From the NCBI RefSeq assembly GCF_041260155.1, contig NW_027248277.1, forward strand, positions 26,796,322 to 26,860,321: a stretch of DNA of 64,000 nt, given 5' to 3'. A program made the position numbers and the translations under genes. The stretch is from Ptychodera flava (taxonomy: Eukaryota > Hemichordata > Enteropneusta > Ptychoderidae). The notes under the pieces were generated by a model, which worked only from the letters and a program-made list of their open reading frames with translations, made no database searches and was not told where the DNA came from. Shown here piece after piece: positions 834 through 34,900 of this stretch; position 1 is the stretch's first letter, and each line of letters opens with the position of its first letter.

Positions 834-1270
834 AGAGTAGAGTAGAGCAGAACTGTGAACTGACAAGCAATGAGTTTTTATAAGAAATTCTGAGAAAATA
901 TGGCTTACTACTTTGCCTACTCTTTTATTTGTATATCTGTACAAATACAATACTGGAGTGCATGCATGGTGTGAAAATAAAACTTGCTGGTGTGAGAAGA
1001 ATAGATGTTGTCTTGTAATTTTTCCGCCTCTATAGCTTATCCACTTTGTGTAGAGATAGTTGTAATAAATTCAGTTGAATATTTGTTTTTATATTTTTGT
1101 CAGAGCTCTAATTATTTGATATGTCCACCCAAAATAGAGGTTGAAAACGTAACATGAAAATTACCAGTGAAACATGTACTGCTCCTGGATATACATGAAC
1201 GGGTATTTGATTTAATAATTTGAGTTAGAATGCATGAATATACCTAGATTAGAGTATCATCTTCGTAGAT
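834..1270. repeat. Interspersed repeat copy, related to 9.9 kb
   Basis: About 850-945 (AGCAATGAG, then GAGAAAATATGGCTTACTACTTT and CTCTTTTATTTGTATAT) matches 9898-9975. The same repeat therefore lies on both sides of the transposase-like gene. The rest, to 1270, shows no genes. One motif, AACGTAACATG near 1147, resembles the CATGTTACAT word at about 9429 in inverse orientation. Confidence 0.5.
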
Positions 1271-1621
1271 TTCAGCATAACTTGCCAAAGGCGATTTTTT
1301 TACGCCTGAAAATCATGTTATGTTCGTCACTCATGGTGTCCTTTTTGTTACGAACATAACAACAGCATTTTATTGCAACTACTAGAAATAATTTTTCAAA
1401 TCAGGATTCAAAAATCTGATGATATGCACTTGGGATATTTACATCAGTTTATAGTATTTTACCACTTGCCGAAATGAATGAGTTTGAACGGTTTGAATTT
1501 CAATGAAAGCCATGGTGTCCGTTTTGTGACGAACGTAACTCTTGACTCCAACCCTATTCAGTAAGTACGCTTCGGCAAGCTTGATCTAATTTTAGAAACA
1601 CCAACCAAAGACGCAACATTC

Positions 1622-1663
1622 TGACGTCACGGCATTACTACACTGTACTTGATTGGCGGGAAA
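1622..1663 (+). promoter_or_regulatory. Promoter-like cluster: CRE, CCAAT and E2F-type sites
   Basis: Within about 40 bp there is a full palindromic CRE core TGACGTCA (1622-1629), an inverted CCAAT box ATTGG (1652-1656) and TTGGCGGGAAA (1653-1663), which equals the classical E2F consensus. The following 150 bp is richer in CpG than its surroundings and contains a plausible first exon ending in AAAG|GTAAG at 1793. The arrangement fits the promoter of the gene whose main exon starts at 3709. Transcription-factor binding is inferred from sequence only. Confidence 0.45.
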
Positions 1664-1793
1664 TATTCGCGCTGTCTACGGTGTCCTGAAGTTCATTCGC
1701 GTGTAGCGTACGTCACACTGAAATTTGCTGCCCATTCGAGTGGAGGAAATATGCGTTTGTTGGATGTTTTCCAACATCGTACCACACTCAAAG
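1664..1793 (+). other. Probable 5' exon of the transposase-like gene
   Basis: This stretch is CpG-enriched and ends in a strong donor, CAAAG|GTAAGA (GT at 1794-1795). The next good acceptor on the strand is TTTGTTTTCAG ending at 3708, directly before the ATG at 3710. An ATG at 1751 would be in a different frame from the long downstream frame after splicing and would hit a stop early. I therefore treat this exon as untranslated, or as carrying a short upstream frame. The exon start is not defined. Confidence 0.35.
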
Positions 1794-2069
1794 GTAAGAT
1801 GAAATGTTCAAGTACAGTAAGTGAAATTATTTCTTTCATGTTTTTGAGTCAGTGGCCCGCATTTTTTGAATGATTTACAAGGTGGTATGGCCGGGCAGTA
1901 AATCACAGGTTCACAGACATGTAGTCTCCGTAACGAACGATGCAAATTTCTAGGACACAGTCAGTAGTCCCGTAAGCTTGATCAATAATGGGGAGGATTT
2001 TCTTGCTCGAATGTTTGCTCTTTCATCATATCTTATTTTCTTCTGCCTTCCCTTATTTTTTGAAAATTT

Positions 2070-3420
2070 CGGTATGTCAGTACGCTCGTAATTTGGACTC
2101 CAGAAATTGTAAACAAAGGCGACCCGGCAGTAGTGTCTGTCATGACGAGCGTTGCGAATTTCAAGAAAATGATGCCACTTGCCAACCAAATTTACTCACT
2201 CTGCATTTTTTTCAGGTTTGAATCGTAGGACTTTGATCAGACCCATCATTTGTTTTAGTTTGGCAATTGCTTCCAAAAATACAAATGTTTCATGTACGCT
2301 CGTAATTGGGACTCCAACATTCGTAAAAAAAACTTTGCTTCCGTTGTGACGTACGTCGTGATTTTATATTAAAATGTCAGTAATACGCGCATAAATTGAT
2401 TTGTCGTGAAGCACTTTTTACTTTTTAATCTCGTCTTTGTCATAACTTATTTTGAGATTTGGGCTTCTATGCAGGTTCGAATTTTATGCAATTCCGTACG
2501 TTCGTAATTTGGACATCAACATTTGTCAAAAAAAATGGCTTCAACCATGACGAACGTTTAGATTTCTTGAAAATGGCTCTCGTACCTACAAAACTAACTA
2601 ATACAGGGGTATGTTTTTACTATTTTTGATGTGAACTCTGTCAGAAACTGGGCATTTTGTATTGTGTGGGAGTTCGATTTGGTAATATCGACAGCTGTGC
2701 ACGCTCGTAATGTGGACTCTGAACTTTGTAAACAAACGTGACCTCGATCTAGTCTGTCATGACGAACGTTGCGAATTTCTTGAAAACGACCTATAGATTT
2801 TATTGAATTTGATTACGTTGCAGTATTTTAAAGCTCGAATCTTGCCCTCTCATTCGACTGACTGTTTATTGTTTTGGTGTTCGTTTTAGAAAAAAATACG
2901 TAGTTACGTACCCGTTCGTAATTTGGACACATGCAAGTGTAAAACAAAATGGCGTCCACTATGACGTACGTGGCGATAAAGTTTCTCGGAAACTCGGCGA
3001 TAAGGAGATCCATTTTGGTGATTGACTCTGGAGCTTTTGTGCTGAAATAATTGTTTAGTCGGATAAGTACCAATCTGATTGAGATGGGGAGTTCGTCTTG
3101 TAAATATTAGTAGTTCTGTAGAAGGTCGTGACTTTGAAGTTGGACTCTACAATTTGTAAACACGTGACCATGCTACCATCCCCATCTTGATGGAGGAAAG
3201 GAGAGTGTAGTAGAAAATGACAAATTCACCAAATCATATTTACGTACACTGCTGGGTTTTCATGTTTTGAATATCCTTTCATATCACTCATTTATTTATT
3301 GTTTTTTATTTTCATTTTGAAAAATAAATCCATAATAATGAACACTTGTAATTTGGACTTAGCATTTAAAAAAAAATGGCTTCATCAAGATAATGATTTA
3401 GTACACAGCGTTGTACTCTG
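2070..3420. repeat. Degenerate ~207-bp tandem repeat in the first intron
   Basis: The word TACGCTCGTAATTTGGACTC or a variant recurs near 2081, 2295, 2497, 2700, 2909, about 3127 and 3341, a spacing of roughly 202-215 bp. Each of the first five units has a second shared word about 50-60 bp further on, ATGACGAACGTTGCGAATTT or a variant (near 2141, 2343, 2544, 2755, 2960). Sequence between the words has diverged strongly while these short words are kept. The array fills most of the inferred intron 1794-3708. Confidence 0.7.
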
Positions 3421-3709
3421 TAATAAGTCTTCGTCTTTTTCAAGTTGTGTTTTGAGTTGGTTATTGAAATAACAATGTTTCCTTATGCTGGTAATTTCAG
3501 AATAATTCAGAAATAATTGTTTAGATCATGTATGCACAGAGACAACACCAACCTGAAGGATAAAATTACATTGATAGATAGACATAGATTGACATAGATT
3601 CACTCATTCACATACTCATAGGATAGTAGATTTTTTTATGTAACTGCAGCGTCAGTTACACTTTTCTAACAATAATACTGAAATAGACTGATAATTATTT
3701 GTTTTCAGA

Positions 3710-6590
3710 ATGGAATTTTGGAGCTTGCGGCGGCGACCCTGCTCAGCCCCAACACTTGAAATTAAACCAAAAAGAGTAGCAAAGACACCAGCTGAAAGGC
3801 AACGAGAATACAGAGCAAGGTTAAAATCTAATCCTGAGCTCTACAAAGCACACAGGGCATTTGAATCAGCTCGTCTGAAGGAGTACAGACTGCTACGCAG
3901 TGAAGAGAAGATTGCCCGTGATAGGGAAAAGTGCCGGATTCGCATGCAGCGTTTCAGAGATCGGCAAAAGGATTCAGCGATATCAGTGTCCTCATCACAG
4001 AAGAAAGCTAAAACTAGAGGTGAAGTGAATAAACAAAGAGAGAAGTGGAGGATTCAAAAACGAAAGCAGCGTGAAGCAATGAGCCAGCAAGCCAAACGAA
4101 GACACAATGAAAAACGAAGAGCAAGAAATGCAGAAAAGAGAATGTTGCAGAAACAACGCACTAAAAATACGCCGAATAGTATTAGTAAACCAGCCTCTAC
4201 ACACACTGATAGTCCTGGAATATCTTCTACACATGCTGATACTCATGTATGGCCTTCTATACACACCAATGGTTCTGCATGGCCGCCTTCTCACAGTGAA
4301 AGTCCTGTACAGCTCTCGATACACCATGGTAGTCCTGAAATATCCCCTGCACACAGTGATAGTCCTGAACAATCGTCTAGCAGTATTATACACAGTGATA
4401 GTCCTGAGGATGCACACAGTGATAGCCCTGAAATATCCTCAGCACACAGTAATAGTCCTGTACAGCCCTCTATACACCATGGTAGTCCTGTGCAATCCTC
4501 TACACACAGTGATAGTCTTGTGCCAGTCTCCACACATACAGTCAGTCCTGAGAAAGCCTCCGATAACCCTGAATCCTCAAGACCAGCTTCTGATTTCCGG
4601 ACGCCAGCTGCAAGAAGAATGGCCATCTCTCGCTCTCGAAGAGCACTGCCTAAATCACCATGCAAATTTGCCACTGTAATTTCTTCAATAATTAAAAAAA
4701 GCTCTCCCAGAAAGCGTGCAGCACTTTCAAAGATGTTGATTTTGTCTCCAGAGAAGAAGAAAAGGTTAGACTTTCTAGAAAAGTCTTCAACCAAGTTATT
4801 GTTAAATAACATCAGAGAAAGAAGATCAGCTAATTACCTGAAAGCCAGAAGAGTTCTTTTCGAGGCAATCAAAGTGAAGAACAAGATGAAAAAGAGGGAA
4901 GCCAGAAAACATCTTGGTTTAAGTTGGCGCTTCTTGAATAAAACTGACTCTCAACATAGTGTTGAATACCGGAAGAAGCGCTCTGATGCTTTGGCAGCAA
5001 ATGTCATCACAAAGGTAGTTTCTTTCTATGAGAGAGGAGATATTTCCAGGGAAATGCCTAACCCACGCAGTGTCTCAAATGGTGTACCACAACGGGTAAT
5101 GGAATGCAGCATCCAGAATGCATATCAGGACTTTATCAAGGAGTACCCAAACTTGAAGTTGTCTTTGGCCAAATTTTCAAAATTGAAGCCATCTCATATA
5201 AAGACACAAAGTCATGCCAAGTTCCTGCAGTGTCAGTGTGAGTACTGTGTGAATGTGCAGTTTAAACTTGATGCACTGTCAGTTCGTTGTGCCCAGTTAG
5301 GTTTCCAGATAACTGTTCCAAACAAGTACAGTGCCTCAGCAATGACAACCTGCCCAAATGACGATACCTTTGCCAAGATCTCATGCGTACATCGTGAATG
5401 TGAAGTATGTGGTACTCATCTGCTCCTTGAGCATTTCAAGCCTCTGCTCGAAGACCACTCTGAAAAGCAGATAAAGTGGAAGAAGTGGACAGCTGAGAGG
5501 TATACTAAACCATCAAGTAATACGGAGGACCAGCAGGAAAGCCGCCACATGGTTTTTGCGTGTGAAAAATGGAACCATCAGTGAAATTGTTAATGAGCTT
5601 CTGGCAGAAATGGAACCGTTCACGAAACACCTGTTCAACGCTAAATGGCAAGCAAAGGAGTTTGCAAACATCTGCACAGTTGTTCCTGAGAAGTGGTTAG
5701 TCCTATGCTCAGACTTTGGGGAGAACTATAATTGTCACTTTCAGGATGAAGCCCAAAGTGCTCATTGGTCATATCAGCAAGCCACCATCCATCCAATCGT
5801 TGCGTACTATCGCTGCCAAGAATCCGAATGTGACAAAACAGTGCGTGAATCATGCATGTTTGTTAGCAGTGACACAAAACATGACTACCATGCTGTGCAG
5901 CACTTTCTGGTCTTAGCTGTTGAATATCTACGCTCAAAAGGGATTGAAATTGAACACCAGGTCCACTTCTCAGATGGTTCACCTACTCAGTACAAGAGTA
6001 AAGTACCCTTTTGTGATGCTTCACATGGTAGCACTGATTTTGTTGTACTGTTGAGAAGCATTTCTTTGGAAGCCGTCATGGAAAAGGCCCGTGTGACGGA
6101 GAGATAGGTGTTTTAAAGAAGCGAGCTGTGACTGCTGTCAAGTCCAGACAAGTAATTATAGCAAATGCAGAAGACCTATATGAATATGGTAAAGATCACT
6201 TGTCTCTCCCCAAGGAAGAAAATAGCCATGATCATAAAAGGCGTAAATTCTTCTTTGTCGGAGCGGATGTCATTGATAGGTCAAGAAAGGAACGCACTGA
6301 TGTCAAAGCCATTCCAGGAACAAGAAGTCTGCATTGTTTCAAGGGAATACAGCCATATGTTGTTGCCACCAGGGAGAGAAGTTGCTTTTGTCAACAATGT
6401 GTCAGTGAGTCAGCGGAAAATGAATGTCTTTTCCAAGAATATGCTGGTCCCTGGACTGTGTCGAGTTTGAAACCCTGCAGGGTGATGCGCCAAGAACTTG
6501 CAACCATTCGCAGAAACCTGAACAGAAGGTCTGGGTCCAGTGATTGTGGGCCTACTGGTGAGGGTTCGGGCGTAACAAAAGATAGTGGCT
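3710..6590 (+). pseudogene. Transposase-like protein, main exon (two frame changes)
   Basis: The ATG lies one base after a good acceptor (TTTTCAG, ends 3708). The N-terminus is Lys/Arg-rich (TPAERQREYRARLK and a long basic helix to about residue 150), then a Ser/Pro/His-rich tandem repeat (about residues 165-280). A Cys-rich segment follows (CQCEYC near 505, CVHRECEVCG near 560). The next part, in a second frame, has DFGENY, QDEAQSAHW, HPIV and SDGSPTQYK. After returning to the first frame it reads HFFGSRHGKGPCDG and LKKRAV. These motifs mark a widespread family of uncharacterised animal proteins. The spaced acidic motifs suggest an RNase H-fold nuclease or transposase, which is inference; I cannot name the family. 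Frame changes lie near 5560 and 6045, so this copy looks inactive unless they are assembly errors. The exon ends at a U12-type donor, GTATCCTTTT, at 6591. Confidence 0.7.
4190..4560 (+). repeat. In-frame ~10-residue minisatellite in the transposase-like gene
   Basis: About a dozen ~30-bp units encode variants of HSDSPEISSA, HHGSPVQPS and similar. The repeat is rich in Ser, Pro and His and probably forms a disordered linker between the basic N-terminus and the Cys-rich part. The reading frame is maintained across all units, which argues that copy number changed while the gene was still under coding constraint. Confidence 0.75.
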
Positions 6591-6928
6591 GTATCCTTTT
6601 AATACTGATATTTTATTTATCAAGTATTGGTATATGATTATTGTGTGATCTTGTCATATTCAGAATACAAACTTACCTGCATGTTTTCTATGATGTACCC
6701 GTTTTCCTGTGAAAATGTTTACCGGTACAATGTCCCATGATACAAAATCTGCCTTTGTAATTGCCATTCATCTTGGAATTCCAGAAAATCCAGAAAATAC
6801 TGCCTTGATCAAAATCAACTACACTTGATAAATATAGAAGTCCCCTTAAAAACTTTGCAGAATGTTTTATTATTGGCTATTGATTTATTTTTATTGCAAC
6901 CATTTTATGTCCTTAACCTGAATATCAG
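6591..6928 (+). other. U12-type (minor spliceosome) intron 1 of 3
   Basis: The donor GTATCCTTT matches the minor-class consensus at every position. The branch-point-like word TCCTTAAC lies at 6910-6917, about 12 nt before the acceptor AG at 6927-6928, inside the 10-15 nt window usual for U12 introns. There is no long polypyrimidine tract, as expected. Confidence 0.75.
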
Positions 6929-7059
6929 CTATTCCACACAGCTGCCACCCAGCCCAGCCTGCCCAACAGAGGCCAATACTGAATCTGAGAATGGTACAAC
7001 GAGTGATGTGTGTAATGTGACCACCGGTACAGCTTTGGCCTCGTTTCAAGGTGACAGAC
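6929..7059 (+). CDS. Internal exon of the transposase-like gene
   Basis: A 131-nt exon between two U12-type introns. The open frame reads TEANTESENGTTSDVC and NVTTGTALASFQGDR, a Ser/Thr/Asn-rich linker of unknown role. It resembles the next exon (NVTTGTALAS against DVTTGRVLVS), and the acceptor regions are nearly identical (CTTAACCTGAATATCAGCTA against CTTAACCTAAGTATTAGCTA), so one exon with its intron edge arose by duplication of the other. It is one base short of a multiple of three, although both flanking introns look like phase 1. That fits decay of this copy or a base-call error. Confidence 0.55.
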
Positions 7060-7163
7060 GTATCCTTTGAAAGTTACCTCAATGGTAAAGTTTGTGATAA
7101 TTTCAACTGTGAACTTTTCAATTATCATTTGTGGTAACTATTTTCTCTTAACCTAAGTATTAG
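7060..7163 (+). other. U12-type intron 2 of 3
   Basis: A 104-nt intron with donor GTATCCTTTG at 7060, branch-point-like TCTCTTAAC at 7144-7152 and acceptor AG at 7162-7163, about 12 nt downstream. The branch and acceptor segment is almost identical to that of the preceding U12 intron, which indicates copying of the exon together with its 5' intron edge. Confidence 0.75.
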
Positions 7164-7444
7164 CTACTTCTATACCAGTACCAGTGGAACCAAGTGAAGC
7201 ATCCCACCAGTACCAGTGGAACCAAGTGAAGCATCCACACCAGTACCAGTGGAACCAAGTGAAGCATCCACACCAGTACCAGTGGAACCAAGTGAAGCAT
7301 CCACACCAGTACCAGTAGAACCAAGTGAAGCATCCACACCAGAGATAAATTCTCAGGATGATACCAGTGTAGAGTGTGGTAATTCCAAGTCAGGAGATGA
7401 TGTGACCACTGGGAGAGTTCTGGTCTCATCACCTGAACAGACTT
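7164..7444 (+). CDS. Internal exon with 11-residue repeats
   Basis: A 281-nt exon. Its first part holds five tandem 33-bp units encoding PVPVEPSEAST. The rest reads DDTSVECGNSKSGDDV then TTGRVLVSSPEQT. A base is missing in the first repeat unit (about 7204) compared with the others, which switches the frame there. The exon ends phase 1 at a U12-type donor. It is a low-complexity acidic linker, and repeat number is likely to vary between alleles. Confidence 0.55.
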
Positions 7445-7820
7445 GTATCCTTTATTTAAAAACAAAATCAGCTGTTTTGTATTTATACCTACTTGAGCTA
7501 GAACCAAAAAATGCACTGAACAAGTAGTTCTTGACCAGATCCAAAATTGCTGTTTGAAAACTGAATATTAAAGTCTAATGAAAACATATTTTCACAGTGT
7601 CTGCCAAATTAGTAACTTACCTGCTTATAGCAAAAATATTTGCATTTGTGAGAAATTTTCATGACTAAGTAGCACCTTTATTTTGTTTGTAACAGTGTAA
7701 TTCAAACCATAAATGTACAGATTTGTGGGAGATAGAAGGTTCATGATTTCCATGGAGTTAATTGCTACAGTTGACTTCTCAATTTTTCAATTACCACATG
7801 CTTCCTAAACTCCCTTGTAG
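7445..7820 (+). other. U12-type intron 3 of 3
   Basis: The donor GTATCCTTTA at 7445 again matches the minor-class consensus. Before the acceptor AG at 7819-7820 there is TTCCTAAAC (7802-7810), a good though not perfect branch-point word at about 11 nt. The intron that follows the next exon is ordinary U2-type (CAG|GTTTGT ... TTTTCAG). Confidence 0.65.
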
Positions 7821-7891
7821 GCACCACTAACCAGAATGAACATAATGTCAACAGTGGTGAACCCACTCTCCCTATGGAGAAACTGGAACAG
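7821..7891 (+). CDS. Small internal exon of the transposase-like gene
   Basis: A 71-nt exon that enters in phase 1, stays open (TTNQNEHNVNSGEPTLPMEK) and leaves in phase 0 at CAG|GTTTGT. The next acceptor (8347-8348) continues in phase 0 into the C-terminal exon, so the phases agree with the proposed splicing. Function unknown; another polar linker. Confidence 0.5.
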
Positions 7892-8348
7892 GTTTGTGTC
7901 AAATGATGTTTTGCAAAGGTTGGCTGCCATGGCGCCTGTTGTTTTGTGCTTTGAAGGCAGATCCTTCTACCAGTATTTGCTCCTACGTTACATAAACCAA
8001 CCTGGAGACCATTGAAGTAAACCTTGTTAAATCAAATCTGGTTAATATCTTGCAAAATGAATTAAGCTTGGAGTGTTACACAGACAGACCAAGTAAGATG
8101 CTTTCGGTAGAATCTTTGAAATTCTCAGATAATTACTTGGGATGCATGTCACTTTGCTGAGGTTGAATATTGCGTACTGATCAAAATTGGCTGTGATGTA
8201 TCTATCCAGTAACTATTTTCTTGGTAAAGCTTGCAAGTAAAATACTCTGCTTGAGAGACCTTTTGATGAGCAAAATTCATATACAAATGGCAAGATGATC
8301 ACTCTTATTTTGGCAGTTTTAACATTTAATACTTCATTTCATTTTCAG

Positions 8349-8633
8349 GTCATACAGCTGTTCCAGTTTTATGCTGTATACTACAGCAAAACTTACTATA
8401 TTGGAAAGCCGACAGCCATTCAAGATGGGCTCTTTGTATTCACATTTCTTCACAAGATGGGAGCAAGGGAGTTCGTTTGGCCAAAGCGAGAGGACACTGA
8501 TAATATCAGCAGGGACAGAATTTTTGGGGGACCGATCCCCCTCATTGGTCAGGGATTAAAATTTCAGATTCAAAGACAAACTTTGAATGAACTCCAATGT
8601 CAATATAAGAAACTAAAAAAACAACTGAAGTAG
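8349..8633 (+). CDS. C-terminal exon of the transposase-like gene
   Basis: This exon starts after CATTTTCAG and reads FYAVYYSKTYYIGKPTA, then FTFLHKMGAREFVWPKRED and IFGGPIPL, ending in a Lys/Leu/Gln-rich helix before TAG at 8631. The pattern YYIG, an aromatic-hydrophobic strand, F-x-WP-x-x-ED and a final hydrophobic strand is the usual C-terminal module of the same uncharacterised family as the main exon. It confirms that 3.7-8.6 kb is a single gene. Its role is unknown; DNA or protein binding is only a guess. Confidence 0.65.
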   Translation, partial: VIQLFQFYAVYYSKTYYIGKPTAIQDGLFVFTFLHKMGAREFVWPKREDTDNISRDRIFGGPIPLIGQGLKFQIQRQTLNELQCQYKKLKKQLK

Positions 8634-9560
8634 GGTAAATTGATGGTGTTTGATGATATTGATGGAACATTCATTTGACAATGTGATATGAAACTTCTTG
8701 TTGTGATTGTCTCCATATTTGAAGTGAGTATTTCTTGAGAGTATTAACATGTTTGTTCCTGCCGTTTGCAGGGGGTCTTTGTTTAATTTATTTGTATATA
8801 TTGTAAAGTTGTGTTTGTTTGATTCTGCTTGCAGGGGACGTTTAAATCCACTTCACAGCAAAATTGTTGTGCTTGTTTTTTGTATGATAATTTGGTCTGT
8901 CCAGGGTACAGATGAACCCAATCTTGAGCTGAGAGCCACCACAGAAACACACAAACAGGGCATGTAATCCTGTAATTTTGATGAATTTAATGTAGATAAA
9001 ATATAATTTGAACATTTGTTTAAAAAAGTATGTGTTTGACCCCAGTTGTAGACAAAATTACGAGTTTTAAAGGACTTTGGTGTCCTATGTGTGTACGTAA
9101 CAAATGTCTAAAAGTTGTTATTTCTCAAATATCTCTAGTTTTTGAACAGTGACTTAATGTTCCTCTTGAAACATTCCAATGCCATGCATTAGATGCAGCT
9201 TGTTGTAGAGTTCATAGTTCTATGAAAATGATTTGCTGACATCATGTTCCGTGTCAGTGTTACGTACGTCACGGTGTCTTGATATGTCACCGAATTTTAC
9301 TATTTGAAATTTTTCAAAAAAAATATGAAACTTTTGCAGTTTGCTCTTAAATGTTCCAGTAAGTGTTCTGAGAGATGTTTTCCACAAAATGAGTACTATT
9401 ATTGATGTTCTGCAGTGTGAATGGACACCATGTTACATACATAACGTTTTTTGTATATTGTGATTTATGCTAGACAACTCAGTTATGAACTAGACAGTTA
9501 TCTCCCTTTCTTCAGTTTATTGTAGAAGGATATACAGAGGTCAAAATAAAGTGTTGTTCA
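8634..9560 (+). other. 3' flank of the transposase-like gene with shared motifs
   Basis: No gene seen. Words built from GGTGTC and GTACGTAAC recur near 9078, 9255 and 9421 (TTACGTACGTCACGGTGTC, GGACACCATGTTACATACATAAC). They recall ATGGTGTCC...GTGACGAACGTAAC at 1332-1365 and 1511-1540, on the other side of the gene. An AATAAA lies near 9545. Confidence 0.45.
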
Positions 9561-9599
9561 TTGAAATTACATGTGCTTCATTTTACTGCTTCTTTGTTA

Positions 9600-9978
9600 C
9601 ACTTTTTGTTGCAGTATTGTATTTGTACAGATATATTGCAATATGGTAACCTGACATGTACACACAGCTATGACAATATTATTACTTTAATACACACTGA
9701 GATACAGTATGGCCTGTTTTGTACCAATCTCTACAATACTTTACATCAAACATGCTAAAAGTTATTGTTTATGGTCTACAAGAACTTTGAAATCCATGTG
9801 TAATATTGGTCAACTAGAATATTGACATTAGTTAACTGGCACTCTTTTTCTTTGAATGATTCCACAGAAATTATCCGAAAATCATTCAAACATGAACTAG
9901 CAATGAGGTATTTTAAAGAAACTCTAAGAAAATACAGCTTACATGTATTACTTTACCCACTCTTTTATTTGTATATTT
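9600..9978. repeat. Repeat copy flanking the DIRS-like insertion (left)
   Basis: About 9650-9860 matches 13304-13525 in direct orientation (GGTAACCTGACATGTACAC, CAGTATGGCCTGTTTTGTA, ACAAGAACTTTGAAATC). Its right part, 9895-9978, matches 850-945. The retroelement at 9979 therefore sits inside or between copies of a host repeat. Confidence 0.65.
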
Positions 9979-12969
9979 AGTGAACAATAATACTTGTTTT
10001 ATTGTAGTTTAAATGGGCCGGGTTCGAGGCTGTGAGTGGGACGGTCTCCGGACGAGGCCACTTAATAGTTAATCAGTATTGGCTTCGACCTCAGAGCGTT
10101 CACATGTGGATAACGTTTGTCCACAAAGCTATTGTTCCCGCCAACGAATAGCAACAATGTCAGACAAAGCACAAAGTTTCCGCGAATGGTGTGAGGCAGC
10201 AGGCCTAACGGAGGATACACACGACGTGCTAACTACACAAGGCATCCCATCAACCAATGTCCTGAAGCGCCTCAACAATCAAGACATCATCGGACTTAAC
10301 CTGCCTATAGGCCAACGCGGACTGCTCCGCTGGGCATGGAACAACTTAGACGCAAAACCGGCAAAACAACAGGCACCTCAAGACCAACCTACACACGGAC
10401 AGAAACATCAGGGGCGACTACAAAGTCCCTCGCCAAAGATGAAGAGTTGAACAAACTCCTCGAAGCTTTCAGCAACGACGCGCTAAAAGACACTGTATCA
10501 GACCAGCGCACCACATCCCAAAATCTAACGAAGGATGAGCGTAAACCATTACTGATTCCGGACCATATAACCACAAAGACTGCTTCACTGGACTCTTCCG
10601 ACGAGACGGAACTAGCAGCGGAAGGGGACATGAAGCTAGTTATGCGGACCGCCAAGCGTAGACCGAAACCTGACCAAGTTTCCCTTCCTCAGTGGATATC
10701 AGCCAACGTCCGAATCTTAAAGACATTGATTATTAACCGCGGCATGTCCACGAAGGACACATTGGCGTACCTCGATCACATAATTAACATCGGGGATTAC
10801 GCGCAATCTTTTACGACATCATCAGTTTTATCGTATGATCACGAGTATCGCAAGAAACAGGCGACGGACTCAATCACATGGGGTTCCGTGGACCTCCATT
10901 TATCACTGTATCACCTTGATAAACGACAGGCAAACGGAAATACGCCCAAGAAAAACACTACGAAGGACACTGCGCGCCGCAACTTTGTCACACGAGAAAC
11001 CGAAATCTGCTTTGATTTCCAAAAACCAGCCGGCTGCAACCGCACTTCCTGCCGTTTCGCGCACGTGTGCATAGAGGACGGCTGCCGCAAAGACCACCCA
11101 CACACCGCCACAATTCGCTGCTCAGCCAAGAACTGGGTGGTCAAGCCTAGCATAAGGTAGCTAGCCCTCTGACTGATTGCCTGGAAAAATGGGAAAACGA
11201 ACTCAAATACGACATGGATCGCGACTTCATTCTAAACGGCATAAAATACGGTTTCGACATCATCGACCCTGGCACCCCCCTTCAAAAAGTGGAACGATCG
11301 AACTATGCATCATGCACCGATCCAGCTTACTGCGAGGCGGTTGAACAACAAATTTTACACGAGATATCAGCAGGAAATTACAAGATCACGAACAGTAAAC
11401 CGCACATTATAAGCAGCCTCGGTGCTATACCCAAGAAACAATCAAACAAGGTTAGACTCATTCACGATTGCAGCCAACCTACCGGCAAAAGCGTGAACTC
11501 ATATGCATCTACAAACTCGTTCAATATGAAACTATCGATCACGCGGTCGCTATGTGCAAGCCAGGATCGTATCTGGCCAAAGTCGACCTGAAATCCGCTT
11601 ATCGCTCTGTACCCATAAGTATTGACTCACAGCGTGCTACGGGCCTACGTTACAAATTCACGCAGCGTAAAACTTGGACATACATGGTCGACACACGCCT
11701 TCCATTCGGTGCAGCGCAGAGCCCGGAAATTTTCACTCGCATCACGCAAAGTATTACTAGAATGATGCGCAGGAAAGGGTATGATGTCGTAATCGTGTAT
11801 CTCCACGATTTCCTAATCATCGCAGACTCTAACCTAGCGTGCGAACAAGCATTTAACGCCTTGCAACAACTACTTCAGCAACTTGGCTTTTCCATAAACT
11901 GGGAGATGGTAGTCGAGCCTACGCAATGCTTAACATTCCTAGGGATCGAGATAAACGCGCACACACGGACTTTGTCCCTAGACGGTAACAAGCTACAAGA
12001 ACTAAGCGACCTCCTGGAATATTGGCTTCCAAAGCGGCGAGCGACGAAACGCGAGCTTCAGCAATTAATCGGCAAACTCAACTGGGCGGCAAGAGTTATT
12101 CGCGGCGGGCGCACATTTTTGCGGCGACTCATCGATGTGACAAATTCGGTCTCACGACAGTCTCATCACATACGCCTTAACAGGCAAGCGAGAGCGGACA
12201 TCAGCTGGTGGGCGAATCTCAGCAAATCTTTTAATGGTACGGCATTCTTCATAGAGGAAACTCCGTTGCCCCAGCAGATTTTCACCACTGACGCATGCTC
12301 AGCAGCGGGAGCGGGCATTTACGCAAACTACTGGTTCTACACGCGATGGTCAGCGGACCATCCAACTACTGCGGATGCGCATATCAACCTCAAGGAACTT
12401 TACACCCGTCCTGCTTGCGTGCAGGCGGTGGCATCGTTTCTGGGACAAACGCCACATAGTGGTATACACGGACAATACCACCACCATGTATATAATAAAC
12501 TCTGGCACGTCACGCAATGCAACAGCCATGGAGTGGCTACGCGAACTCTTCTGGCTGTCGGCAATCTCCAACTTTCAGATTACCGCCAGATACGTCAGAA
12601 CTAATGATAACGACGCGGACTCCTTATCGCGCCTGCACGAAATTAAACACTACTTCAGAGCTTTAGACACCCTGCAAAGTCGCGAGGCACACCCTTTACA
12701 GGAGTGGCACTACCATATGTCTGTTTCCACACACTCCTTATTGCTCCAGGACCTTTGTAGTAAGAACTTTACAAACTAAGTAACATGCATGGACTCTTTT
12801 AGCGACAATGACGCTATTTCCAGGGCGCCGGAGGGCTAGCGCCTACTACTAGTGTTGGGGGCTTTTGGCGGAAATCGGCTCATAGCCTGTCAACATCGGA
12901 ATAAAGTTGTTGACCTTGACCCCCAACACTTGTGTCTGTCTGTATGTTGTCAGTATAGGCATCATTTAA
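9979..12969 (+). mobile_element. DIRS-like retrotransposon fossil, about 3 kb
   Basis: Parts seen in order: an N-terminal region with a SAM-like segment (SFREWCEAAGLTED ... LLRWAWNNL) near 10.17-10.36 kb; a gag-like part ending in a CCCH-type cluster (CNRTSCRFAHVC) near 11.04 kb; a reverse transcriptase with KVRLIHDCSQP and LPFGAAQSPEIFTRI (11.4-11.9 kb); and an RNase H-like part with FTTDACSAAGAGIY (12.27-12.7 kb). The RT style and the CCCH finger point to DIRS-type elements. No tyrosine recombinase is recognisable before the end at 12969, so it may be a lineage without one or a shortened copy. It is broken, with a few breaks. Ends almost identical to the adjacent short copy suggest recent insertion. 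An AATAAA lies near the 3' end. Confidence 0.65.
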
Positions 12970-13294
12970 GTGAACAATAATACTTGTTTTATTGTAGTTT
13001 AAATGGGCCGGGTTCGAGGCTGTGAGTGGGACGGTCTCCGGACGAGGCCACTTAATAGTTAATCAGTATTGGCTTCGCCCTCAGAGCGTTCCCCCACCCT
13101 CCCTCCCTATCCTACTAGCTTGCAATTGAATTTTTTTTACTCCTTTCTTCTGCTTTTCATCTTTGAATATGTATCTTATTATGCCTAGAGTGGCGGAAAT
13201 CGGCTCATAGCCTGTCAACATCGGAATAAAGTTGTTGACCTTGACCCCCAACACTTGTGTCTGTCTGTATGTTGTCAGTATAGGCATCATTTAA
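12970..13294 (+). mobile_element. Short internally deleted copy of the same element
   Basis: This copy is joined head-to-tail to the longer one. Its first ~115 bp repeat the left end at 9979 with one difference seen, and its last ~104 bp (13191-13294) are identical to 12866-12969. The ~100 bp between them (CT-rich, 13091-13190) has no match in the long copy. Near-identity dates both copies as young relative to their surroundings. Confidence 0.75.
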
Positions 13295-15355
13295 AATATG
13301 TTAACCTGACATGTACACATAACTGTGACAATATTTTACTTTTAATTCACACTGAGATACAGTATGGCCTGTTTTGTATTAATCTCTATTAGAATACTTC
13401 ATGTCAAACATATTAAAAGTTATCTTTTATTGTTTACAAGAACTTTGAAATCTATTTTACACCCAGTGTAATATTGGTTAGCTAAAACATTGTCATTAGT
13501 TCACTGGCACTATTTTCCTTTGAATGTTTACATGTGAAGTACCAGAAAGTCACAATTTGCACATTTCAAACTCTATGGCATATTTCTCGACAACCTCATT
13601 TAGTTGTAAAATGTACAAAAAATAAGAGACAGAAAAATTGAAAGGGTTCTTTTAAAGATAATCATTTTTGTAAACTACACAAAAGACAATCATGTTGGGA
13701 TGCAGCAATATTTGTTGTGTAGTTATTGTTGGATCATTGAGTTTGCAAGATCTCACAACAATGCTAGCATTTATTTATGTTGTCAAAGTTTTCATCGTTT
13801 TTGGTAAAAAATGTTGTTCCCAAGAACGAATTGAGAATAATTTGAAATTTTTAGTTCCCTAGAGATACTGTTAAAAATAATAATTTGATAAGTAGTATAT
13901 AGGCTAGCATTATTCTGTTATATTATACTGTCTGTCATCTTTTTTGTGGAAAATATGTTCAGTTGTCACTGGTTAATATAGAGAACTGCGAGCTAAATTC
14001 ATTCCTAGTTATTTCTTTGACCCCCCTGTAGAATATAAGTTTTATCAACTTATGTCAACAAAAAACGTTTATTTATTGAATCAGCTGAATAAATATATAT
14101 TTTTTGCGTTTCAAAAAAGGGAACATTTGTTACAAACCTAGATAAATTCCTCCTCAAATACCAAGATGGTTAAATGCAGAGTTGTATTTTGTTTTGTATT
14201 TAAAAGGCCATTGGCCTTATGCCGGGGGTGTATACGGAATAAATGATTATTCATATTCATTCACTGGTTAATATTTGAAATCTTTTTGGTTCCCTTAATG
14301 ATTTACTTATAGATACCATTCTGAAATATGGCACATTGTGAAATACTTTGTGTTTTCTTTTATAGCAATATTTTTTATTTTACTTACAGTACAACTACTG
14401 ATGTTAGAATTTTTAGTAGCACTCAATGAAATACCGGTATACTGTGTTGGTGTCAATATAATGCTAAGTGTATAGTATAAGTGAACAATGGTAAACACTT
14501 TTACAAGTTCATCACAGATAAGATCTAAAAGAATATATAAATCTGTCATTTCATCATAATAAATGCACAGCAGCCAACTGTACTATATTTTCCCTTAAGA
14601 TCAGCTGCAAGTAAGAATATCACAGCATATTGCTCTTGACAGACAAATTAAAACCAAATTACGTACCGATAAATGACCATATTAGATCACAAAATGACCA
14701 TATAAGATCACAAAAAACTGACATACAGTTGTATGCCTGGACAAAATGGTAAAATGAGAATCAAGACCAGGAACATTAAGACTCTGCCATCTTGTGATAG
14801 AGATCTGAAGTGATGCTTTGATACAACCAACAACTTATGAGTCCATGCATATAATGAGCATTACGATGCAGATTGACACAGCAACTCATTTCAAATGCTT
14901 AACCAGTGATATTTGAAGATATTTTCCATTTACACTAAATAACTGCAATATTATGCCGTTTGTGTTGAATGTAACAAACCTTCTTCATGTGCAATTCTTT
15001 GACACACCTTTACCAATGATCTTACAGCTTATCTGAAAATACAGTGGTTTCTTTCCACAGACAATATAAATGAAAACTGTCTGGTTCTCTCTACTGCACA
15101 TTCTTTGATTCTAAGAAGGCCATAATTTATCAACAAAAATAATCGAAAAATGAAAAACTTTGTGATAGTTCATGTGTTCCTTTAATAATTTGGATATAGT
15201 AAATCATACCCTATTTGAGACCCTAGGTAACGTTATCCCAATTGTTTACTGCGTATTTGAAAAAAATACATCCTAAAGGTCAGCATGTTAACAAATTGGC
15301 AAACAATTGAAGTGCACACTTATGTCTTTCAACTGAAGGAGATAGTTACACTTAC
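13295..15355. other. Right flanking repeat, then non-coding sequence
   Basis: 13304-13525 is the direct copy of 9650-9860. After that no gene is evident. At about 14200-14255 a segment with GGCCATTGGCC followed by AATAAATGATTATTCAT looks like the 3' tail of an old LINE or SINE, a weak guess. From about 15355 leftwards this is an intron or 3' part of the ankyrin gene. Confidence 0.4.
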
Positions 15356-16512: not shown

Positions 16513-17977
16513 TATATTATCAAAAAAGCATTATTAGGCAATGTCACATTTTTGAAAATATTGTTTGGCATTTTTGTTGAACCCTGACAAAGCACTCCTC
16601 ATAGTTCAGCCAGTTTTCTATTTTGATATTTGAAAATAGTGGCATAAATGTGTTTTAATTGTCTCCTCTTTTAGTACAAAAAAAGGCAGTTATTAGTCTG
16701 TCTGTCTGTATGTATAGAAATGAAAATTATAAAAATTAGCAGAAAATAAGCAGTTGTTTATGAGAGTATTTTAGGTTTTGATATACAATCCAAGAAAGCA
16801 CTCCTAAAAGCATTGCCTTCTCTAAATTTGAGTTTTTTAAAACGATGAGTTTAGATGTACATGATACAGTTCACGCTGCAATGTCTGTTAATCCCTCAAC
16901 ATTCATTCACAAATCTTTATGTTAGTGTACCAGGGTATCGTCCAACTCCTCTTACACACATTTGTCATGCTTAAACGTATTTGTTTATAACCAAATGTCC
17001 CCTTAGACAATTGTTCAATTTCTGATGTTAACAAAGTCACTTGACAAATCATTCAATCTCCTACTCAATGAACCCACTGTTTATTGCATTTTAGAACGAC
17101 AATGTTAATATTATTTTTTCTAATAATTGAAAAGTCAAATTGTTTCAGCAAAATTTCAAATCATACAAAGTCCGCCATTTTTACTGTGAATATATTCAAA
17201 TTGTAAGACTAAGCAACTATCTCAATGACCAACGTTTTGAAAGCTTTTTTGCCAGACAAAGGGAAGATGATGATTTTTCTGAATTGAAATAAGGGATAGA
17301 AACAGCAGAATTTGTTTGTTTATTTGACTGAATTTTGTTAATATTTAAATAATTAACAGTCGATGTACTGTAGACCTTGATGCCTGGCAGTGCCTGCCTT
17401 ACTAATGATACAAGTGGCTAAAAATGTAGTCAGCACGTTTGTTTAAAAAATGTAGACTGTAGGATGTTTCAAATTGTGGACCTTGCAACATACGTTTAAT
17501 CTGGGAAACTCATTGTTTTACCAGGACAAATTTGCATTCTTTAGTTTTCTAACTAAATCAGACACATATTAGAGGAAATCTTGCTGTAGTCAGTCAAAAT
17601 GAGTGAATAAACTGTTTGCTTACATGTCAGCTATATTTCACATATTTAATTCAACATGGGGCTGGTTATTAAAACCATTAAATAATTATGTGAATGTTGT
17701 TGTCATTAGGCTCATACAAGCAATTTCATTTCCTAAAATAACTGGAATTTATGCATCTTGACTTAACCTATTCTTCTTATATTTGAACTTCCCATTCTGT
17801 GCATTGCTTATTCAGCAAACTAAGTTTAAGTGGTAAAGAATACCCTCTGATTGTGTCATAAGATTTAAGCTTGTCACTTTATACTTTGCACACACATGAA
17901 ACATTTAATGCATATAATTGATCGTTTCAGTATTCCCTTACAAGTTTATGTCATAATAAAAGAACAACTATATCAAA
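16513..17977. other. Intronic, no gene recognised
   Basis: AT-rich non-coding sequence with a short run of GTCTGTCTGTCTGTATGTAT-like repeat near 16697. No exon or element ends were identified. Confidence 0.35.
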
Positions 17978-19118
17978 ATACTGCCTATGTTGTATTGGAT
18001 ACCTAAACTGCACAAGAACCCTTACAAACAACGTTTTATTGCAGGATCAAGCAATTGCACTACCAAACATCTGTCACAATTATTGACTATAGTTTTAACA
18101 ACCATCAAAAATGGTCTTTTTCGATATTGTGACAAAGTGTATGGTACAAGTGGGTTGAATCAAATGTGGATACTAAAAAATTCGAAGGAATTGTTGCTTG
18201 ATTTAAAAGTCAAGAAAAACAAGTTCAGCTCAATCCGAACATTTGACTTTTCCACATTATACACCACAATTCCCCACGATAAACTTAAAACAAGGCTATC
18301 ATCTCTTATTAAACAAGCTTTCCTGCATAAAAATGGCAGTAGAAGGTACCAATACATTATCATCAAACATAGGACAGGTTATTTCAGTGACAACATGGAT
18401 GCCCAGCACAAATACACAGATGAAGAAGTTATTAAAATGCTTAATTTCTTAATCGACAACATATTTGTTAAGTTTTGCGGTATGACATTTCAACAATCTA
18501 TCGGCATACCAATGGGTACAAATTGTGCACCCCTTCTTGCAGACTTATTTCTGTATTCATACGAAGCAGAGTTCCAGTCTCTCTACAAAGCAAAGTCTAA
18601 AAAACTTGCAAGGCGTTTTAACAGCACACACAGATATATCGATGATCTGATTAGTCTAGACAATCCAGACATATCAAATTACTTACATCATATTTACCCT
18701 GATGAGTTGGATATCAAAGAAACAACAGAGGGTAGGAACTCTGCTTCATATCTTGATCTGTTCCTACAAGTGGGTACTAATTGGCTACACACTAAGCTGT
18801 ATGACAAAAGGGATGATTTTCGATTTTGAAATCATAAATTATCCCCACTTGTCAAGTAATATTCCATCTGCACCTGCTTATGGTGTGTACCTGTCTCAAC
18901 TTGTCAGGTATTGTAGGGCTTGTGATTCCTACACTGATTTTCAACTGAGACACAGCTCATTGGCATCAAAATTAGTGAGACAAGGATACACAACAAAAAG
19001 ACTCGTTAGGACTTTCAAAAGGTTCTACGGTCGATATGACGACATTGTGGCCAAATATGACACCTCGGTCACTCAAATGATTAACGACAGTATTCCTGGC
19101 TTTGACTTATTACAGTGA
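17978..19118 (+). mobile_element. Reverse transcriptase remnant, Penelope-related type
   Basis: The protein pattern is YWIPKLHKNP, RFIAGSSNCTTKHLS, TFDFSTLYTTIPHDKL, GIPMGTNCAPLLADLF, HRYIDDLISLDNP, then KLYDKRDDF and YGVYLSQLVRYCRAC. This is a reverse transcriptase whose finger, palm (YIDD box) and thumb-side motifs are in order. The PKLHKNP opening and STLYTTIPH box resemble Penelope-like elements more than LINEs or LTR elements; the exact clade is uncertain. It is a fossil with about one break in the visible part and lacks a recognisable start and endonuclease. It lies in an intron of the ankyrin gene, opposite to its transcription. The ~150 bp after the coding part (GACGGGTGTAGCATGCTAGC) is probably its 3' untranslated region. 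Confidence 0.75.
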
Positions 19119-26021: not shown

Positions 26022-26862
26022 AATGTAGAATAAAGTTTCTATAACACAAGCAGTCAATGTTTTTCAGCGTATTGAGCTTTCGATCTGTCATGGGCGACGA
26101 TCTTCATCAAGATGACAAAAAACACTAATTTATAGTCGACCACCAGATGGTGGTGTAATCAACGGATTGTAAATATGGACGTATTTCAAGACCCCCGTCT
26201 CTGTGTATTTGTGGATTGTGACATCTAATGTTAATGGCTTCTCGGATCTTCCTTGGCAAGTCATACTGTGCTGAATGAATGATAGTAATGGAATTCAAAT
26301 TGATATCGTGATGGAATTGCTGTGCAAGTTGGGATAAGGTTGATGAAATTGTCTTATGTCTGACAGATTTCCGATGTTCGTCTATTCTTGTTTTAAGTTG
26401 TCTACCTGTCTCACCAATGTAAATTTGGTCACGATCCTCACAAGGTATCTGGTATGTTCTACCACATCACTGTTCCAGGGCTATTTTGTCCTTTGGAGAC
26501 AGAAGAAGGTGTCACAAAGTTTGATTGGGTTTGAAAGCAATGGATATGCTGTGTTTCCTGTAAAATCTGCAGAGTTTCTGTGAGATACCTTGTGCATAAG
26601 ACAGTGTTATCCTGCCTTTTGTTGATTTCTTGACTTTTTGACTATCCCCTGTTTGGGAGGATGAAGTAATCATATGCTGATGTTGTTTTAGTGTCCGTGA
26701 TGGATGACCAGAAATGGCCAGTGCTTCGTCAAGTTCCTTATTTTCCGATATTATTAATTTCTTGTTGTCATTCTGATGAACACTGTTGTCCATGACAGAT
26801 CAAAAGCTCAATACGCTGAAAAACATTAACTGCTTGTGTTATAGAAACTTCATTCTACATTT
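26022..26862 (-). mobile_element. Penelope-like element remnant with inverted terminal repeats
   Basis: On the minus strand the frame reads CEDRDQIYIGETGRQLK then TRIDEHRKSVR, the GIY-YIG endonuclease signature of Penelope-like elements. A GATGAAGATCGTCGCC-type 3' region follows, as usual in that family. About 70 bp at each end (26022-26093 and 26790-26862) are inverted copies of each other (TTTCTATAACACAAGCAG, TTTTTCAGCGTATTGAGC). Penelope-like elements are known for pseudo-LTRs in direct or inverted orientation. No reverse transcriptase lies between the ends, so this is a short, broken copy. Confidence 0.7.
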
Positions 26863-30631: not shown

Positions 30632-31913
30632 CAAGTCATCGTTGATGACACAGTCCCCACTTGTTAATGGGTACTTTGATTACAGGTCCTCAGAGAGGAT
30701 AGAGTCCTCTTCATTAGGTCTGTGATCAAAATACTTTTTAATAAATTCACTTGATACATGTCTGAGTTGTGGTTCAGGACATGAAAAAATCGTAATAAAA
30801 TGGCCACACAGTGGCCATATTGGATCGTATCACAAGACAAATCAATGTGCATATGTATGACATAGGTCAATGTCCTTGTACCAACTTTGAATAAAATCGG
30901 TTGAGATATGCCTGAGTTATGGCTTTGTACATGAAAAAATCATAACCAAATGGCTACCATATTGGATCGTATCACAAAACAAATTGACTTGCATATGTAT
31001 GTCATTGGTCAATCTCCTTGTACCAACTTCGAATAAATTCGCTTGATACATGTCTGAGTTATGGTTCTGGACATGAAAAAAACGTAACAAAATGGCCACA
31101 TGGCGGCCATATTGGATCTTATCACAAAACAATTCAATGTGCATGTGTGTGACATAGGTCAAAGTCCTTGTACGAACTTTGAATAAAATCGGTTGAGATA
31201 TGCCTGAGTTATGGCTCTGTACATGAAAAAATCGTAACAAAATGGTTGCATAGTGGCCATATTGGATCATATCACAAAACAAATTGATGTGCACAGCTAT
31301 AACATTGGTCAATATCCTTGTACCAACTTTGAATAAAATCGGTTGAAACATGCCTGAGTAATGGCTCTGTACATGAAAAAATCGTAATAAAATGGCCGCC
31401 TGGTGGCCATATTGGATTGTATCACAAAAAAATTGACGTGCATATGTATGACATAGGTCAATATCCTTGTATCAAGTTTGAATAAAATTGGATGAGATAT
31501 GCCTGAGTTATGGCTCTGTATATGAAAAAATCGTAACAAAATGGCCGCACGACAGCCATATTTGATCGTATCACAAAACAAATTGAGGTGCATATTTATG
31601 ACATTGGTCAATGTCTTTGTACCAACTTTGAATAAAATCGGTTGAAACATGCCTGAGTAATGGCTCTGTGTTTGAAAAAATCATAATAAAATGGCCGCCT
31701 GGCAGCCATATTGGATTGTATCACAAAACAAATTGACGTGCATCTGTATGACATATGAAGTAATCCTTGTACCAAGTTTGAATGAAATCGCTCCAGGCGT
31801 CTCTGAGATATCTGCGTGAATGGACGGACGCACGCACGTACAGACGCACGCAAAACGGACGCACGGACATGACCAACCTATAAGTCCCCCGGACGGTGTC
31901 CGTGGGGACTAAT
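30632..31913. mobile_element. Satellite-cored element I (Helentron-like structure)
   Basis: The left end carries a 15-nt hairpin, GTCATCGTTGATGAC (30635-30649). The core is about seven units of a ~150-bp satellite (30740-31800). An ACGGACGC-rich simple repeat follows, and the right end is a stem-loop with arms AGTCCCC and GGGGACT around CGGAC-GGT-GTCCG, then CTAAT. The layout of end hairpin, tandem ~150-bp core, microsatellite and terminal hairpin is that of the non-autonomous Helentron relatives described in molluscs and flies (pearl, DINE-1). The family assignment is inference, as no Rep/helicase gene is present. Confidence 0.65.
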
Positions 31914-34900
31914 TAGTGATAACGCAAAGCAAACGCAACATTGAGACGTATACAATTGTCACAGATAGCTCAAAAACCACTAATCAAATCTTTCCAAAAT
32001 ATCATAATTACCAAGGCTGTGTCATTGCAACAAAGACAAAATACGTATATTTTTGGTCTAATTATTAATGTTGCAGATTAGCTTTTTAGTTTGCTTTAAA
32101 ACACGCTCTGCATTATGTTAGAGGAAGAAATATAACAAAAGCAAAATTCTACTCAGTTGCACAGTCCCCTGAAATGCAAAAACATATACATTTGAGACAT
32201 AGAAGAGCCCTGATTTGTTTCAAAATAGTCAGTTAAGTATTGCCCTTAATAAATTAACAATAAGTATTGACCTATGATTGGAATAAAAATTGAAAGTATC
32301 ATTGTAGAAAAAACAAGTCATCGTTGATGACACAGTCCCCACTTGTTAGTTGATACTTTGATTACAAGTCCTCAGAGAGGATAGAATCCTCTTCATTAAT
32401 TAGGTCTGTGATAAAAATACTTTGATACAGATGGCGCTCAATGGCCAAGAATGAGTCCATGCTGATGAAAACATAAAACAATGTAGGCCACTATCCTAAA
32501 GGTCATTAATGAGTCAACTAGGAATTAATCGACAGGATGTTGCAAAACATTTTTGCCTACTAACCTTACACTAACAGATAATCACCGGTACCATATTTCA
32601 TAAAGTTTGATGCAGCATTTACAACACTATGAGATCAACATCTGTATCAATTTCATCAAATTTGACGTTGTATTTGTGGATATATCACTCTAATTAGGAA
32701 AGTTCATTACATATGCAATTACAAATTAATTAAAACGACATTGATAAATGTCTTTTTCACTGTTATTGAATGTGAGCTTAACATCCGTACAAAGTTTCAT
32801 GAAATTTGATGCAGTATTTCTTGACAATCAGCCTAATTATGAAACTTCAATAATTGACATGATACTGCTAAATGACATGAAACAAATTGACGAGCATATA
32901 TCCGAAATGGGTCAATGTCCTTGTACCAACTTTGAATGATAGTGGTGGATATGTCTGAGTTATGACTCTGTTTATGAAAAAATAGTAATAAAATGGCCAC
33001 CTGGTGGCCATATTGGATCGTATCAAAAAACATATCAATGTGCATATGTATGACATAGGTCAATGTCCTTGTACCACTTTGAATAAAATCAGTTGAGATA
33101 TGCCTGAGTTATGGCTCTGTACATGAAAAAATTGTAACAAAATGGCCGCAATGCAGCCATCTTGGATTGTATCAAAAACAAATTAACGTGCATATCTATG
33201 ACACTGGTCAATGTCCTTGCACCAACTTTGAATAAAATCGGTTGAAACATGTCTGAGTTATGGCTCTGTACATGAAAATATCGTAATAAAATGGCCGCCT
33301 GGCAGCCATATTGGATTGTATCACAAACAAATCAACATGCATATGTATGACATTGGTCAATGTCCTTGTACCAACTTTGAATAAAATCGGTTGAAACATG
33401 TCTGAGTTATGGCTCTGTACATGAAAAAATCGTAATAAAATGGCCGCCTGGTGGCCATATTGGATCGTATCACAAAACAAATCAATGTGCATATGTATGA
33501 CATAGGTCAATGTCCTTGTACCAACTTTGAACAAGTCATCGTTGATGACCCAGTCCCCGCTTGCTAATGGGTACTTTGATTACAGGTTCTGTGATAAAAA
33601 TACTTTGATACAGATGGCACTCAATGGCCAAGAATGAGTTCCATGGTGATGAAAAACATAAAACCAATGTAGGCCACTATCCTAAAGGTCATTAAATAAG
33701 TCAACTGGGAATTAGTTGACAGGATGTTGCAAAACATTTTTTCATTCTATCCTAACACTAATAGATAACCAGTACCATATTTCATAAAGTTTAATGTAGT
33801 ATTACAACACTATGAGATCAACATCTGTATCAAGTTTCATCAAATTTGACGTTGTATTTGTGGATATATCACTCTAATTAGGAAAGTTCATTACATATGC
33901 AATTACAAATTAATTAAAATGACACTGATATGTCTTTTTCACTGTTAAAGCAATGTGAGCTTAACATCTGTACAAAGTTTCATGAAATTTGATGCAGTAT
34001 TTCTGACATATCAACCTAATTATGAAACTTCAATAATTGACATGATACTGCTACATGACGTGAAACAACTGACGAGCATGTATGAAATGGGTCATGTCCT
34101 TGTACCAACTTTGAATGATACTGGTGGAAATACCGGTATGTCTGAGTTATGGCTCAGTACATGAGAAAATCGTAACAAATTTGCCGCCACGCAGCGATAT
34201 TTGATCTTACTGTTCAAAAAATCAACACGTATATGTATTACATAAGTCAATGTCCAGGTACAAACTTTGAATAAAATCAGTTGAGACTTGCCAGAGTTAT
34301 GGCTCTCGACATGAAAAAAACCATAACAAAATTGCTACCATGTGGCCATATCAGACCATATGGAGAAACAAATCAATGTACTTATGTATACTATAAGTCA
34401 ATGTCCTTGTACCAACTTTGAATAAATTTGCTTGATACATGTCATGAGTTATTGTTCAGGACATGGAAAGTCGTAAAAAAAATGGCCACAAGGCGGCCAT
34501 ATTGGATCGTATCACAAAAACAATTCAATGTGCATAAGTATAACATAGGTCAATGTCCTTGTACCAACTTTGAATAAAATCAGTTGAGATATGCCTGAAT
34601 TATGGTTTTGTACACGAAAAAATCATAACAAAATGGCTGCCTGGCGGCCATATTGGATCATATCACAAAACAAATCCACATGCATATATATGACATTGGT
34701 CAATGTCCTTGCACCAACTTTGAATAAAATCTGTTGAAACATGTCTGAGTTATGGCTCTGTACATGAAAAAATCGTAATAAAATGGCCGCCTGGCGGCCA
34801 TATTGGATCGTATCACAAAACAAATCGACATGCATATATATGACATAGGTCAATGTCCTTGCACCAAGTTTGAATAAAATCGGTTGAGATATGCCTGAGT

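Follow-up and report, generated by a model that had tools for sequence, protein, structure and literature searches.

Three consecutive predicted U12-type introns, apparently multiplied in part by exon duplication, in the transposase-like gene of a probable DNA transposon

The DNA analysed here, a single stretch of 64 kb referred to as the window, contains a gene on the plus strand that runs from a first ATG at 3710 to a TAG stop codon at 8631-8633. Exon 1 (3710-6590, counted from that ATG and preceded by a U2-like acceptor at 3708) is transposase-like, and is followed by U12-type intron 1 (6591-6928), exon 2 (6929-7059, 131 nt), U12-type intron 2 (7060-7163, 104 nt), exon 3 (7164-7444, 281 nt), U12-type intron 3 (7445-7820), exon 4 (7821-7891), U2-like intron 4 (7892-8348) and exon 5 (8349-8633), which encodes the C-terminal domain in an open frame that ends at the stop codon. 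The G+C fractions of exons 1 to 5 are 0.44, 0.53, 0.48, 0.47 and 0.40, and those of introns 1 to 4 are 0.31, 0.29, 0.32 and 0.36. Exon 3 carries a minisatellite of 33-nt units (7174-7342; 5.2 copies, 98%) that codes in frame for PVPVEPSEAST units. A possible U2-type leader intron, from 1794 to 3708 (AAAGGTAAGAT ... TTGTTTTCAG), lies upstream of the first ATG of exon 1.

The gene lies between two terminal inverted repeats, one at 932-955 on the plus strand and the other at 9612-9635 on the minus strand, which match each other exactly over 24 nt; the longest such match between the upstream and downstream flanks in 300 shuffles was 14 nt. Elsewhere in the window there are four exact inverted stretches of at least 21 nt, in each of which under 1 kb separates the arms. 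Both ends are bordered on the outside by TATA (932-935 and 9632-9635), reading TATA-TCTGTACAAATACAATACTG on the left and the mirror of this on the right. Sequence of the left flank (858-936) is found again at 9889-9976 (80%), and that of the right flank (9640-9858) at 13295-13526 (82%), so the transposon seems to be seated at a tandem-repeat junction. The TATA at the ends fits a target duplication but is palindromic, and the empty site for comparison is the paralogous junction, diverged and split by a second element, which by eye reads as a single TATA. Motifs resembling TGACGWACGT occur twelve times inside the element (ten at 1320-2962, within a 5' subterminal region at 1320-2971, and two at 9260-9262) versus four times in the other 55 kb, and in 40 shuffles of the element their mean number was 0.575 and their highest 2; the motif was picked after looking, with both strands counted and two palindromic sites counted twice.

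Together, the inverted ends, the TATA and the subterminal motifs make an 8.7-kb DNA transposon likely, and it probably extends from about 936 to 9631, with ends TCTGTACAAATACAATACTG and a TATA or TA target duplication. These features strengthen the description of the gene as transposase-like in an earlier, sequence-only reading of this DNA. The gene might instead belong to the host, with inverted repeats that are accidental or part of another element; in keeping with this, no second copy of the element was detected elsewhere in the 64-kb window at E 1e-3, and no transposase family of Pfam matched the gene. A host gene is nevertheless improbable, given exact ends ten nucleotides longer than any obtained by shuffling, the concentration of motifs inside the element and the TATA at both ends.

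Several other elements were observed in the window. The one that occupies the paralogous copy of the tandem-repeat junction, at 9975-13294, has split direct repeats (9975-10101 versus 12964-13091, 98%; 12866-12969 versus 13191-13294, 100%) and encloses a frame-broken reverse transcriptase (RVT_1, E 4.2e-16) and an RNase H-like match below the cut-off; we take it to resemble DIRS/Ngaro elements. Reverse-transcriptase-like frames lie at 17960-19118 (RVT_1, E 0.00024, below the cut-off) and a GIY-YIG domain at 26125-26466 (E 1.5e-6), 7 kb away on the opposite strand, as in Penelope-like elements. At 30736-31790 and 32880-35334 a unit of about 150 bases is repeated in tandem, with open frames through the unit on the minus strand. 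A frame-broken DDE_3-like transposase lies on the minus strand at 62768-63443 (Pfam E 0.00022 for one of two frames, below the cut-off). A long inverted repeat at 61840-62497, with exact stretches of at least 20 nt between about 61840-61963 and 62375-62497, is perhaps a non-autonomous foldback element.

The protein encoded between the inverted repeats matched no Pfam family at the cut-off, and exon 5 found no match even at E 1, either in Pfam or among PDB sequences. In Rfam, no match to the window reached the gathering scores. A methyltransferase identity for the middle part of exon 1 (Pfam E 0.014, score 16.7 against a cut-off of 26.3) was rejected as chance. The segments SDFGENY, HFSDG and GKGPCDG may hold the residues of a DDE/D-like triad. 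Similar proteins are widespread in aquatic animals. An animal host is suggested by the introns and by the types of mobile element, and relatives were sought in prokaryote genomes and viral contigs, where a miss is not informative on animals. The first part of exon 1 gave 89 pattern stretches in prokaryote genome contigs, of which none was confirmed; the middle part gave no pattern match in viral contigs; and the last part gave seven pattern stretches in viral contigs, none of them confirmed by tblastn. A degenerate HGKGPCDG pattern picked out two viral and 17 genome stretches, but tblastn with four pieces of the gene reached a best E of 0.028, and these stretches were taken as chance.

The donors of introns 1, 2 and 3, at 6591, 7060 and 7445, all read GTATCCTTT, and these are the only occurrences of that sequence on either strand of the 64 kb. 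By chance 0.57 occurrences would be expected per window, and at least three occurrences anywhere were found in one of 100 shuffles; the three donors are on the same strand, inside 863 bases. In each of the three introns the donor has the RTATCCTT form of the U12 class, and a sequence resembling the TTCCTTRAC branch site lies within the 10-15 nt or so from the exon that are expected of this class. The branch sites match the consensus at eight of nine positions in intron 1 (GTCCTTAAC), seven of nine in intron 2 (TCTCTTAAC), which is the weakest of the three, and eight of nine in intron 3 (TTCCTAAAC), and the distances from the branch A to the exon are 12, 12 and 11 nt, respectively. Each of the three introns interrupts its codon in phase 1. 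Intron 4 looks U2-type because it starts with GTTTGTGTCA and ends in the pyrimidine-rich TTTCATTTTCAG.

A strict scan, which called for a GTATCCTT donor, no more than one mismatch over eight branch-site positions, an AG 9-15 nt further on and a length of 60-600, recovered introns 1 and 3 and missed intron 2 because its branch site has two mismatches. On the minus strand the scan gave one further GTATCCTT site and one ATATCCTT site. Applied to both strands of 150 shuffled windows with the GTATCCTT donor only, it gave a mean of 0.29 sites and a highest count of 3. At such rates, chance is not a plausible source of one gene that has two strict sites and another perfect donor inside 1.2 kb, all interrupting codons in the same phase. 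That the sites are chance look-alikes, or belong to U2-type introns rather than to the minor class, is accordingly very improbable: such a view may appeal to the strict-scan chance rate of about 0.29 per window and to a prediction built on DNA signals, but it has to accommodate three identical nonamers in 863 bases of one strand, a consistent phase, a GC contrast between exons and introns and a downstream open frame that can be reached only by splicing. The sequence-only reading had proposed three consecutive U12-type introns from their identical donors and their branch sites at 11-12 nt, with junctions at 6590/6929, 7059/7164 and 7444/7821; these junctions agree with the sequence. As DNA signals the arrangement is confirmed, real and unusual, and splicing at its junctions is strongly predicted.

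Exons 2 and 3 are homologous neighbouring exons, by their heads and by their tails. For acceptors 1 and 2 and the adjoining heads of exons 2 and 3, the alignment spans about 65 columns and scores 45, a value reached in none of 5000 randomizations that kept the branch nonamer and the AG in place and shuffled the remainder (mean 20.0, highest 44); in a more severe test, where masking of the branch region also fragments the alignment, 155 of 2000 reached the score. The tails of exons 2 and 3 agree at 31 of 60 positions in exact register to the donor, compared with 22 at the best other offset within 12 bases, and this was matched by none of 5000 shuffles and none of 843 in-phase windows of exon 1. 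Whole-exon local alignments gave 11 of 1000 for exons 2 and 3, 20 of 1000 for exons 1 and 3 and 614 of 1000 for exons 1 and 2, with exon 1 represented by 75 bases. Exon 4 bore no resemblance to exons 1, 2 or 3 in the same test (132, 695 and 674 of 1000). Pairwise comparison of the interiors of introns 1 to 4 revealed nothing significant in six tests, the lowest being introns 2 and 3 (70 of 1000), so whole introns are not claimed as copies; by eye and with no control, the 61 bases after the donors showed no obvious likeness either (17, 13 and 20 of 61).

Exons 2 and 3 are thus best read as copies that carry their own acceptors and donors, as the earlier reading proposed from the likeness of acceptors 1 and 2; the exon tails are now seen to be alike as well. 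The copying of one exon flanked by two U12 introns yields one extra intron, which here would be intron 2, and the making of one U12 intron by duplication is well supported by these alignments. The earlier claim had been that two of the introns were created in this way. For the second, the evidence is a moderate match between the tails of exons 1 and 3, which agree at 28 of 60 positions at zero offset (next best 23; five of 5000 shuffles; one of 843 windows with the exon 3 tail fixed and none of 843 with the exon 1 tail fixed). This moderate evidence suggests that intron 1 has a copied donor too, in which case one original U12 intron may have given rise to all three. The tails of exons 1 and 2 agree at 23 of 60 positions (173 of 5000 shuffles; 17 of 843 windows with the exon 2 tail fixed and nine of 843 with the exon 1 tail fixed).

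Acceptor 3 does not clearly resemble the other two. It shows no likeness to acceptor 1 (3830 of 5000; 433 of 1000 in another test) and at best a weak one to acceptor 2 (256 of 5000; 413 of 1000; six of 2000 in the masked test). These acceptors and the weak resemblance between the tails of exons 1 and 2 would suit a history in which introns 1 and 3 were original and mutually unrelated, and duplication of the exon between them produced intron 2 only. That history does not predict the match between the tails of exons 1 and 3 in exact register, and it is entertained here as a possible but less probable account. Creation of two U12 introns by duplication is plausible, with fair evidence from the sequence comparisons.

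The reading frames complicate this picture. Exons 1, 2 and 3 each end after the first base of a codon, and retention of intron 1, 2 or 3 would lead to an in-frame stop codon 15, 3 or 27 codons past the donor, respectively. The frame is kept across the intron 3 junction, and exon 4 begins in phase 1 and ends in phase 0, leading into exon 5, which is open to its stop. Exons 2 and 3, however, are each off by one base: both have lengths of the form 3n+2, and therefore the splice form that removes the three introns separately is not one open frame as given. In exon 3 the discrepancy falls in the first minisatellite unit, which reads TSIPVPVEPSEAS in the phase-1 frame, while the later units encode that peptide in a frame shifted by one; exon 2 is likewise out by a single base. 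Exon 1 also changes frame, within 5475-5584 and within 6038-6107, where its open frames (3695-5584, 5475-6107 and 6038-6637) overlap, and the neighbouring reverse-transcriptase element likewise spans several overlapping frames. The frame breaks in exons 1, 2 and 3 imply that this copy may be decayed or mis-sequenced; either the transposon gene and the adjoining reverse-transcriptase element are both decayed, or single-base assembly errors are present.

In the sequence as read, the sole form that keeps the frame is one in which exons 2 and 3 are both skipped, exon 1 being left and exon 4 entered in phase 1. The interval 6591-7820 could accordingly be a single U12-type intron of 1230 nt, with the duplicated donors and acceptors and the one-time exons persisting inside it as exons that are optional or in decay. 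The frame-breaking lengths of exons 2 and 3 agree with such skipping, and the identical donors would be expected to ease it. On the other side, both exons are as rich in G+C as exons are, with long open frames, the 33-nt array repeats one peptide in frame as if it had recently been coding, and each discrepancy is of one base. A single long intron is considered unlikely.

The preferred interpretation, to which a probability of about 0.62 is assigned, is a DNA transposon with one transposase-like gene in which three phase-1 U12-type introns, multiplied by tandem duplication and followed by a U2-like intron, cut a variable linker that connects the presumed catalytic part with the C-terminal domain. 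The sequence itself displays the donors, the branch sites, homology between the tails of exons 2 and 3 and between acceptors 1 and 2, and the inverted ends. Starting from one U12 intron, or from two, tandem duplication would have copied a segment that ran from an exon tail through donor, branch site and acceptor to an exon head, and the phase-1 symmetry would have kept each new copy in frame at its origin. A transcript of the transposon's own gene would then have all three introns removed by the minor spliceosome, so that linking the presumed catalytic part with the C-terminal domain would take the excision of three introns of the minor class and one or more of the major class. With identical donors and matching phases, any donor in an intact copy could be joined in frame to any later acceptor, and therefore the length of the linker could vary. 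At each transposition the element would spread its set of introns. The sequence-only reading had suggested that a transposase-like gene could spread U12 introns; this appears to hold only for copies of the element itself, and not for an entry into host genes. Slow minor splicing may also limit transposase output. That the transposon uses a duplicated U12 intron array to throttle its own transposase, or to restrict it to certain tissues, is a speculative and improbable extension; splicing, regulation and mobility are all predicted from the DNA. If true, the U12 array would be both mobile and of the element's own making, and minor introns would have a means of becoming more numerous, not just of disappearing.

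Losses dominate what has been observed of U12 introns, and duplication of an exon with a full set of minor splice signals offers a concrete and testable route of gain, as well as a simple cause for the clustering of U12 introns in genes. Their location in a transposon could place many copies of the same minor introns in one genome, and such copies would be a natural series for the study of minor splicing and its decay. A single clear-cut U12 gain is reported among the metazoans studied in PMC2831892, and molluscs belong to those protostomes that are relatively rich in U12 introns (PMC10639083). A proposed effect of slow U12 splicing is a lower level of expression (PMC3488318). Among the matches listed in the open-licence literature, the titles and abstract openings described no U12 introns inside a transposon. 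In a paper on a soybean CACTA transposon (PMC2613891), 'minor introns' occurs in a reference title only and the term U12 is absent.

Known systems share several features with the array described here. Minor introns mostly occur singly (PMC6865273), in line with the earlier view that three in a row is unusual, but in one survey (PMC7367187) all 21 genomes that contain U12 introns are reported to have them clustered in individual genes more than chance would predict, and therefore a cluster alone is less surprising than first thought. The clusters of that survey and the present gene have in common more than one U12 intron per gene and a phase other than 0, favoured in the survey; U12 introns are reported to avoid phase 0, with phase 1 the commonest in animals and plants (PMC7367187, PMC10639083). 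Whereas the survey names fission-fusion, splicing speed and late invasion as explanations, the copies here look like local tandem duplicates within a transposon. Several U12 introns per gene are likewise found in voltage-gated sodium and calcium channel genes, and most mammalian genes for the alpha subunits hold two (PMC2831892). Those introns are long-conserved and reside in host genes, in contrast to the three introns here, which are adjacent within 1.2 kb around short linker exons. Genes with mutually exclusive exons resemble this one in having minor signals at alternative exons, and staggered minor and major signals can force the choice of exon (PMC6865273). Those genes mix the two kinds of signal, whereas the junctions of the present array are all of the minor type, so exclusivity is not forced and any donor could pair with any later acceptor. 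In work on intron gain by tandem duplication (PMC2891723, PMC4974935), as here, new introns arise from local duplication; a term search counted no use of 'U12-type introns' in either paper. Clusters of U12 introns within genes were already known; the present addition to the sequence-only reading is the placement of such a gene between inverted repeats, in what is probably a transposon.
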